Source of the DNA: a virus
Virus record (IMG/VR): IMGVR_UViG_3300036851_000798
Span: 1 to 22,557 of that record
Reading direction: 5' to 3' (one strand)
Length of the DNA stretch: 22,557 nt
The notes under the pieces were generated by a model. It was not told the DNA's origin. It ran no database searches and saw nothing but the letters and a program-made list of their open reading frames with translations. Shown here one piece after another: positions 7,418-9,628 of this stretch. How positions within the stretch are numbered: position 1 is the stretch's first letter; every line of letters starts with the position of its first letter. The translations under genes were made by a program, and so were the position numbers.

Positions 7418-8311
7418 CTACCGACTCAGGCCGCGGGCCTTGAACGCGAAGAAGCCGAGGTCGAGGTCCTTCGCCGCCGTGGTGTCCGTCACGACGACGG
7501 CGAGGGCGTCTTGAGCGGTCGTCGGCACCTGGGCGGAGATGGTCTGGTCCGCGCCCCCGTCGAAATTGAAGATGACCGTCCCCGCGACGCTCGAGCGCAA
7601 GCGCACCTTGTGCCAGGCCGTGTCGCCGGCGACGTTGGTGTTCACCGCCGTGCTGTTCACGCTGGCGGCCCGGCAGACGAGCATGAAGTTGGTGTCCGCA
7701 TAGGCGACGTTCGTGTCGAACCGCACCCAGCAGCCGTCGGTCGGCTCCACGACGTTCGCGGTGCCGCCGAAGCCGACCCGCAGCCGCACGTTGGCCGCGG
7801 ACGTGAGCTTGAACCGCCACGTCATCTCCCAGCTCGCGTTGCTGCCGAGCTCGCCGAGCGCCTGGAAGGTGTTGCCGCCGAGGGTGAAGGTCCCGCCCTG
7901 ACCGCTCGTCGACGTCGTCGTGATGCGGTGGACGCCCAGCTCCGGCCACGTCGAGGCGACCTTCGAGATCGTCGGCGCCGCCCCGACGGACCCGGGCGCC
8001 CAGCCGAGCATGCCCGCCAGGCCCGTGCTGGACCCGCCGAAGCCGAATTCATCCCAGATGACGAGGGCCGTCGGATCGTTCGGGTTGACGTCGAGCGACA
8101 CGGCCGCGCCCGCGCCGCCATCGGTCAGGTCCAGGTAATCGCGCGCCGCGAGCGTACGCTCGGCGGTCAGGGCCGACTCCGCGCTGATCGTGACGAAGGT
8201 GGCGTTGATCGGCGCGGTGTGGCCCTCGAGGCGACCGCCCGCGGCGCTCGTCGCGCTCAGCGCGAGCAGCGCGAGGAGGACCAGGAGCCCGCGGAGGCGG
8301 CTGTGCATCAC
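7418..8311 (-). CDS. LamG-like virion surface protein with signal-peptide-like N-terminus
   Basis: The frame starts at a GTG at 8311 or the adjacent ATG at 8308, both overlapping the previous stop (GTGATG); the product is about 297 residues. Residues 1-24 look like a Sec signal peptide: SRLR, a Leu/Ala core LLVLLALLALS, then SAAG. Next comes a phage-fibre-like segment (TFVTISAESALTAERTLAAR), then from about residue 90 a beta-rich domain with EFGFGG, TWRFKLTS, GCWVRFDT and TAWHKVRLRSS, the pattern of a concanavalin/LamG jelly roll. These domains bind carbohydrates or decorate capsids and fibres. Its place among capsid genes suggests a head decoration or fibre. The signal peptide is odd for a virion protein. 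Confidence 0.65.
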   Translation of the reverse strand: MMHSRLRGLLVLLALLALSATSAAGGRLEGHTAPINATFVTISAESALTAERTLAARDYLDLTDGGAGAAVSLDVNPNDPTALVIWDEFGFGGSSTGLAGMLGWAPGSVGAAPTISKVASTWPELGVHRITTTSTSGQGGTFTLGGNTFQALGELGSNASWEMTWRFKLTSAANVRLRVGFGGTANVVEPTDGCWVRFDTNVAYADTNFMLVCRAASVNSTAVNTNVAGDTAWHKVRLRSSVAGTVIFNFDGGADQTISAQVPTTAQDALAVVVTDTTAAKDLDLGFFAFKARGLSR

Positions 8312-8664
8312 TGGTCCTCCGTCGGCATGACCTTCTTGTTGCCGACGCCGTTGTGGATGCAGTTGACGACATCGGTCGGGGCGGCGACGTCGGCGTGCCA
8401 GTTGCCGCCGGCCGCGTTCAGGCGAATCCCCTTGCCGACCACGGCCGCGGTGCCGTCCGCCGCGCAGTAGACGATCGTGTCGCTGTCGTTCTGGAGGATC
8501 AGCACGCGGCGGTCGTTCTTGGCGGCGAGGACCTGCGTCGACGTCGTCGTGACGTCGACGGCGTCGTAGTGCTTGTGGCGGAGCGCGGCCGCCGCCGGCC
8601 CGGCCACGAGCGGGACGGCGAGGACGGCGGCGGCGATCGCGACGGCGACGAGGCGCAGGCTCAT
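8308..8664 (-). CDS. Small head-region protein with signal-peptide-like N-terminus
   Basis: This 118-residue protein starts at the ATG at 8664, four bases after the TAG of the cement gene. Residues 1-26 resemble a signal peptide: MSLR, hydrophobic core LVAVAIAAAVLAVPLVAG, then PAAAA. The mature part is a small beta domain with VTTTSTQVLAAKNDRRVLIL and QNDSDTIVYCAADG, then GIRLNAAGGNWHAD. I recall this pattern from small phage head proteins that usually lack a signal sequence. The role is probably capsid-associated. The presence of a Sec-type leader is discussed as a finding. Confidence 0.7.
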   Translation of the reverse strand: MSLRLVAVAIAAAVLAVPLVAGPAAAALRHKHYDAVDVTTTSTQVLAAKNDRRVLILQNDSDTIVYCAADGTAAVVGKGIRLNAAGGNWHADVAAPTDVVNCIHNGVGNKKVMPTEDQ

Positions 8665-8668
8665 CGCC

Positions 8669-9628
8669 CTACTTCCGGGTGTACTCGATCCAGACCGCGT
8701 AGAGCTCGACCGTGTCCGTCCCGTGCGCGCCCGGCGTCAGGGTCACCGCGGCGACGGCCGGATAGGCGCCGATGTCGCCGGCGGCGATCGTGCGCGAGAC
8801 CTTGGCAAGCGTCGAGGAGAGCGCGCCCGTGGCGCCGCCGGCGTCGGTGTCGCCCGTCTTCTCGAAGTAGGCGACGGTGATCGTCGGCGTGTCCGTGGCG
8901 CCGCCCGACTTGGCCAGGCAGTTCACGACGACGGGCGCGGCGTCGTCGAGGTCCGGGGGATACGCGAAGCTGAAGGTGACGGCGTCCGTGTTGGCGGCGG
9001 CCCACTTCACGCGCAGGGCCTGGTCCGTGGCGCCGTTGACGCGCTCGAGGATCGGCGTGGAGTCCTTGCCGAGGATGCCGCCGGAGCCCTTCGCCGCCCC
9101 CGTCGCGACCGTGTCGATGTCGCTGGAGACGATCTCGCGCAAGCCCGCGAGCGGAATGTTGATGAAGCCGGTCGCGCTGTGCACCGCGATGTCCAGCGCC
9201 ATCTCCGTCGCCGAGAGCGCCCAGCCGAGGCGCTGCGCGTACGTGGCAGGTGCCGTCTGCGTGGTGCCGGCGGCCGTGGTGCTGAGGAAGACGGCGCCGC
9301 CCTTCGTCAGGGAGGAGAGCCCGCCGACGATGCCGCGGGTGACGATCTCGACCGGGTCTCCGGACGAGCCGCCCTTGCCGATCACGCCGATGGCGGGGCG
9401 GAGCGTGGCGTCGTCGGCGTCGGCCTTGTACGCCTTGCCGTCGGACTTCACCATGACGACGTCGCCCTCGGCGAGCGTCTCGCCGGCGGTCGAGCCGACA
9501 CGCGAGAAGATCTGCTGGACGCTGACGGCGGCCGCGGCCTCGCCGGGGATCCACGGCGCGGCGACGGCGAGCACGGCCAGGAGCACGAGGGCGGCGAGCG
9601 GCCGCCCGAAGAGTCGGCGATCGGACAT
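8669..9628 (-). CDS. Capsid cement (DUF2190-like) protein with C-terminal extension
   Basis: This 319-residue protein starts at the ATG at 9628 after a GGAGGG ribosome-binding site; a longer frame upstream exists but lacks support. Residues 1-34 resemble a signal peptide (RPLAALVLLAVLAVAAPW, then GEAAAA). Residues about 45-150 match capsid cement proteins: GETLAEGDVVMVKSDGKAYK, ATLRPAIGVIGKG, DPVEIVTRGIVGGLSSL, then QRLGWALSATEMALDI. Residues 151-319 form an extra domain beginning TGFINIPLAGLREI and ending YAVWIEYTRK, probably a beta-rich knob or fibre. It lies immediately after the capsid gene, as expected for a protein that binds between capsomers and stabilises the head. Confidence 0.8.
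   Translation of the reverse strand: MSDRRLFGRPLAALVLLAVLAVAAPWIPGEAAAAVSVQQIFSRVGSTAGETLAEGDVVMVKSDGKAYKADADDATLRPAIGVIGKGGSSGDPVEIVTRGIVGGLSSLTKGGAVFLSTTAAGTTQTAPATYAQRLGWALSATEMALDIAVHSATGFINIPLAGLREIVSSDIDTVATGAAKGSGGILGKDSTPILERVNGATDQALRVKWAAANTDAVTFSFAYPPDLDDAAPVVVNCLAKSGGATDTPTITVAYFEKTGDTDAGGATGALSSTLAKVSRTIAAGDIGAYPAVAAVTLTPGAHGTDTVELYAVWIEYTRK

Follow-up and report, generated by a model that had tools for sequence, protein, structure and literature searches.

Three consecutive genes in the head region of IMGVR_UViG_3300036851_000798, encoding a cement-like protein, a small protein and a LamG-like protein, begin with leaders that resemble Sec signals of the signal peptidase I type. 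By sequence criteria these leaders exist and are translated, and that of the cement-like protein is conserved among its homologues. We tentatively favor the reading that the three products are Sec-exported accessory proteins of the virion, i.e., capsid-surface proteins that would join the heads at lysis. The window, by which we mean the whole stretch of DNA analyzed, is a 22.6-kb fragment of an uncultured virus with 72% GC. The order of the head genes on its minus strand is terminase, portal, MuF, protease-capsid fusion, cement-like, small and LamG-like (Table 1), such that the protease-major capsid fusion sits immediately upstream of the leader-bearing gene run.

Table 1. Head region features of the window, with predicted leaders and profile matches
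Feature	Position	Strand	Characteristics
LamG-like protein, 296 aa	7418..8308	-	signal-like leader, residues 1 to ~23 (8240-8308)
Small protein, 118 aa	8308..8664	-	signal-like leader, residues 1 to ~27 (8584-8664)
Cement-like protein, 319 aa	8669..9628	-	leader, residues 1 to ~33 (9530-9628); beta-rich N-terminal domain; beta-sandwich-like C-terminal domain
Protease-major capsid fusion	9820..12201	-	no leader; Pfam Phage_capsid_4 2e-32; PHROG head maturation protease
MuF-like head morphogenesis protein	12493..13515	-	no leader; PHROG head morphogenesis
Portal protein	13350..14870	-	no leader; PHROG portal 3e-41; ATG 14870 behind GGAG
Large terminase, 495 aa	15049..16539	-	signal-like leader, residues 1 to ~24 (16468-16539)
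Small terminase candidate	16536..17105	-	no leader; assigned by position; stop overlaps terminase start

Leaders in the head gene run of the window

Leaders were scored with a heuristic of our own, which looks for a basic n-region, 11 uncharged hydrophobic residues and a small-x-small site; it overlooked malE, and cleavable signals and N-terminal membrane anchors look alike to it. By this heuristic, a basic n-region, a hydrophobic core and a small-x-small site lie near the N-terminus of the cement-like protein (MSDRRLFGRPLAALVLLAVLAVAAPWIPGEAAAA/VSV, where the slash marks the putative cleavage site), the small protein (MSLRLVAVAIAAAVLAVPLVAGPAAAA/LRH) and the LamG-like protein (MHSRLRGLLVLLALLALSATSAA/GGR). 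Together with inspection of the starts and ribosome-binding sites, this confirms the three signal-like N-termini listed by the first-pass annotation, which overlooked a fourth on the large terminase (MRRALALLILLALGAIPSAPVAEA/VVQLTGYQ). The terminase matches Terminase_6N (8e-16) and Terminase_6C (3e-10), the Pfam ATPase and nuclease domains, and the match begins past the leader. In the cement-like protein the leader is predicted to form a helix (residues 8-26) separate from the beta core.

The cement-like gene starts with the ATG at 9628, preceded by GGAGG at a spacing of 6, and the LamG-like gene with the ATG at 8308, preceded by GGAGG at a spacing of 7 and overlapping the preceding stop codon as TGATG. 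The ATG of the small protein (8664) directly follows the preceding gene, and its AGG is weak. None of the three genes offers, between leader and domain, a downstream start preceded by a good ribosome-binding site. Because ribosome-binding sites precede the leaders and no good alternative start is available, mis-called starts are unlikely. None of 202 internal in-frame ATG, GTG or TTG codons in the window genes opened a signal-like sequence, while the rate of acceptance was 1.8% at arbitrary positions and 1.0% for shuffled 60-mers; at the 1.8% rate, an arithmetic estimate puts the chance of four leaders in about 18 genes at roughly 3 in 10,000. Applied to lambda, Mu and B3, the rule flagged no head or tail protein, and in these phages and a 50-kb stretch of E. 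coli it flagged exclusively exported or membrane proteins. An artefact of GC-rich DNA or of wrong starts might be suspected from the 72% GC of the window and the Ala- and Leu-rich leaders, but relatives of 50-60% GC carry leaders too, and these, the strong ribosome-binding sites and the internal-start control make it so improbable that we regard it as ruled out.

The names "cement" and "small head" given by the first-pass annotation are supported by no profile. The cement-like protein of the window matched no cement or decoration family, and one of its homologues, L184, reached Phage_cement_2 with an E value of 0.44 only. In the profile search the small and LamG-like proteins had no family match, and searches for their relatives found none; scanning genomes with the capsid protein of the window likewise gave no relative. 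The cement-like model has weak structure matches, most of them to beta-sandwiches that bind carbohydrate and to fibre-like proteins of phages; one is a capsid-portal chain from a Haloferax virus (TM 0.60 by target length). Elsewhere in the window, the open reading frame at 21697-22557 opens with a long repeat, and that at 17861-18511, which overlaps the 18136-18567 gene in another frame, contains a signal-like stretch (RRRLVLALVVAATGGGVASA) and is possibly part of a lysis cassette.

The cement-like family and leader distribution

Relatives were gathered by scanning IMG/VR and bacterial genomes with terminases as anchors, and are metagenome fragments with crude gene calling. The leader is kept in all 11 clustered cement-like homologues, among them the ones from MAGs of Spirochaetes (L085) and Deltaproteobacteria (L086). 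When 155 genomes from the class of the L086 host were searched later, four more were obtained (L245-L248), all with leaders preceded by AGGA or AGGAGG; L245 is a second cement-like copy within the L086 genome. In ten homologues that were checked, AGGAGG or GGAGG lies ahead of the leader start. Across the 11 clustered and four added homologues, nearly all the leaders end in a small-x-small site just before the folded domain. The leader sequences themselves diverge widely. Under simulated neutral drift with 45% site change only about 13% of leaders survive, whereas all 11 clustered and the four added homologues have one. Of the earlier interpretation, then, the signal-like and translated nature of the leaders holds by sequence criteria, while its premise that relatives usually lack them is not supported: every close relative of the cement-like N-terminal domain has one. 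Distant relatives sharing only the C-terminal half (L033, L036, L162-L167, L193 and L232) have none, and in cultured phages neither the cement-like nor the DUF6385-like proteins have a detectable homologue.

An unbiased survey covered 192 distinct loci with 84 gene families, 68 of which have no leaders at all. The families rich in leaders were the cement-like (11/11), lipoprotein-like (7/7), Wzy_C (5/5), cap_E (10/13) and DUF6385-like (4/7) proteins. The Wzy_C cases are not true signals, since these are multi-helix membrane proteins, and the DUF6385-like proteins that fail the rule have the same pattern behind a longer N-terminus. The lipoprotein-like family (L106, L108, L113, L123, L142, L146 and L150; mostly Acidobacteria or Terriglobia MAGs) sits close behind the terminase in the majority of its loci. 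By position, signal-like genes have two peaks relative to the terminase, one at about -3 kb, the usual place of lysis genes, and one at +6 to +8 kb, just past the capsid gene, where runs of at least two such genes occur in L086, L190, L203, L208 and L215.

In five genomes a Wzy_C or Wzy_C-like gene adjoins the cement-like gene. It comes after the cement-like gene in L186, L203, L208 and L210, and is followed by a DUF6385-like gene in the last three; in the MAG locus L248 the order is cement-like, Wzy_C-like (by sequence similarity and motif) and DUF6385-like. A further Wzy_C-like gene occurs in a different head cluster (L228). The likeness to the Wzy_C superfamily, which comprises O-antigen ligases/polymerases and PglL-type transferases, consists of a Pfam match and an HNEY-type motif; against the Pfam cut-off of 31.7, L186 (40.1) and L208 (39.5) score above, whereas L203 (25.4) and L228 (31.1) fall below. 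In L186 (16328-17410), L203, L208, L210, L248 and L228 the gene is inside the head gene cluster, and in L197 a membrane protein with TPR-looking repeats occupies the Wzy_C place. Among the window genes examined, none resembled Wzy_C.

The three proteins might instead lie outside the virion, as exported surface or conversion proteins encoded within the late operon, as the lack of a capsid profile match for all three and the resemblance of the C-terminal domains to carbohydrate-binding and fibre folds would allow, and the adjoining Wzy_C gene of the relatives could then serve O-antigen conversion. We consider this unlikely: the place between capsid and connector genes is conserved, related phages have leaderless relatives with the same C-terminal domain, and the leaders on terminases and capsid proteins would be left unexplained.

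Leaders on terminases and major capsid proteins

A hydrophobic leader was found on 26 of 178 distinct terminases (23 by the rule, three as hydrophobic only). On the tree its distribution needs seven changes, at least six of them forced by well-supported branches, so that the terminase leader was repeatedly gained or lost. The hosts, according to MAG titles, include Nitrospirae (L082, L083), Geobacteraceae (L157) and Planctomycetota (L131, L134), where the leaders are apparently independent and that of L134 was judged by eye. Several leader-bearing terminases have no ATG between the leader and the Walker A region, and nearly all of the listed terminase matches to cultured phages start past the leader. 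The dN/dS of the leader is mostly 0.1-0.7, versus about 0.05-0.14 for the core, and exceeds 1 in two pairs, on few sites; by these ratios the terminase leader is constrained but loose.

The major capsid proteins of relatives carry leaders as well, in 10 of 13 Phage_cap_E proteins (among them L019, 16887-18005, and L045, 5716-6843). The cap_E protein of L022 is leaderless, and so, apparently, are L250 and L251. The Pfam match (L045, 5.6e-54; L019, 5.1e-41) begins past the leader, and the listed cultured cap_E matches start at query residue 40 or later, likewise past it. The AlphaFold model of the L045 protein has a mean pLDDT of 33. Between two subgroups, 18 of 25 leader residues (~72%) are identical, with the whole proteins being about 25-27% identical; across this divide the capsid domain is less conserved than the leader. 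Cytoplasmic assembly is thus in sharper conflict with the leaders than the first-pass annotation stated, because in relatives the terminase and the major capsid protein carry leaders too.

It could be argued that the leaders are tolerated but unused, with fast folding retaining the proteins in the cytoplasm. This would let terminase and capsid protein function, and it accords with a terminase leader dN/dS in excess of that of the core. We hold it to be quite improbable, as the leader dN/dS is still mostly below 1, the signal grammar persists at large divergence, and the capsid leader is ~72% identical where whole proteins are ~25% identical.

The leaders on terminases and capsid proteins call for either membrane docking or incomplete export. 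In the docking alternative, the main rival of the export reading, leader anchors would gather the capsid, the accessory proteins and the packaging motor at the inner membrane, and would be trimmed on release of the head. Docking also accounts for the terminase and major capsid leaders, and fits those two better than export does; a second short hydrophobic stretch behind the major capsid leader in several relatives is consistent with it, and there is a precedent in T4, whose proheads are described as starting on a membrane-bound portal and being released upon maturation cleavage (PMC9958956). However, the basic charge before the core favors, in our own reading of the positive-inside rule, an N-inside, body-outside orientation, the small-x-small sites point to cleavage at the periplasmic face, and the portal, MuF and connectors have no leader. 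On balance, docking seems to us possible but doubtful.

Proposed export route and its significance

The export reading fits both the place and the signal grammar of the three genes. The proteins would be made as Sec precursors, the leader directing each to the inner membrane, where signal peptidase I would cut it off and the proteins would gather in the periplasm. Heads would meanwhile be built in the cytoplasm, and lysis would bring the two together, the exported proteins then coating the freed capsids. In relatives with an adjoining Wzy_C gene, the proteins may also acquire sugars during their stay in the periplasm. That the proteins are exported, cleaved, part of the virion, added at lysis and glycosylated is inferred. 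Against this reading, relatives' terminases and major capsid proteins with similar leaders must work in the cytoplasm, no profile marks the three as capsid proteins, the structure matches are weak, and the window genes examined showed nothing like Wzy_C. The terminase leader lies outside it, and we take it to mean membrane targeting with incomplete export. Export of all head proteins was ruled out, as leaders are absent from the portal, MuF, the connectors and the window capsid protein. More broadly, there may be a lineage of tailed phages whose heads are assembled and filled at the inner membrane or partly across it, with Sec leaders on capsid protein, motor and accessory proteins and with a phage-encoded Wzy_C enzyme modifying some head proteins in the periplasm; we think this improbable.

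Mu-like and B3-like transposable phages (Escherichia phage Mu, Pseudomonas phage B3) share the general head gene order, and the B3 terminase has 33% identity to that of L019, but none of the Mu and B3 structural proteins examined has a signal-like leader. Filamentous phages are membrane-extruded filaments and differ in having neither an HK97-type capsid nor a terminase. Their coat proteins are components of the virion that travel by the export pathway of the host (PMC4823517), as is proposed here. The T4 proteins Soc and Hoc attach late, once the heads have expanded, with nanomolar affinity, and provide a precedent for late addition to finished heads, although the cited text describes no export step for them (PMC9958956). 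The same source has the T4 prohead assembled at the inner membrane with gp20, gp40 and YidC, as in the docking reading (PMC9958956); T4, however, attaches the portal, which here is leaderless, whereas it is the relatives' terminase and capsid protein that bear leaders.

We came across no earlier account of tailed-phage capsid proteins or terminases with conserved export signals in the titles and abstracts of the open-licence literature searched. Tailed-phage heads are assumed to be made entirely in the cytoplasm. The MAG hosts of leader-bearing relatives include Nitrospirae, Geobacteraceae, other Deltaproteobacteria and Spirochaetes. If the proposal is true, some phages would use the host secretion route in building their heads, and this could let them decorate their capsids with periplasmic sugars.
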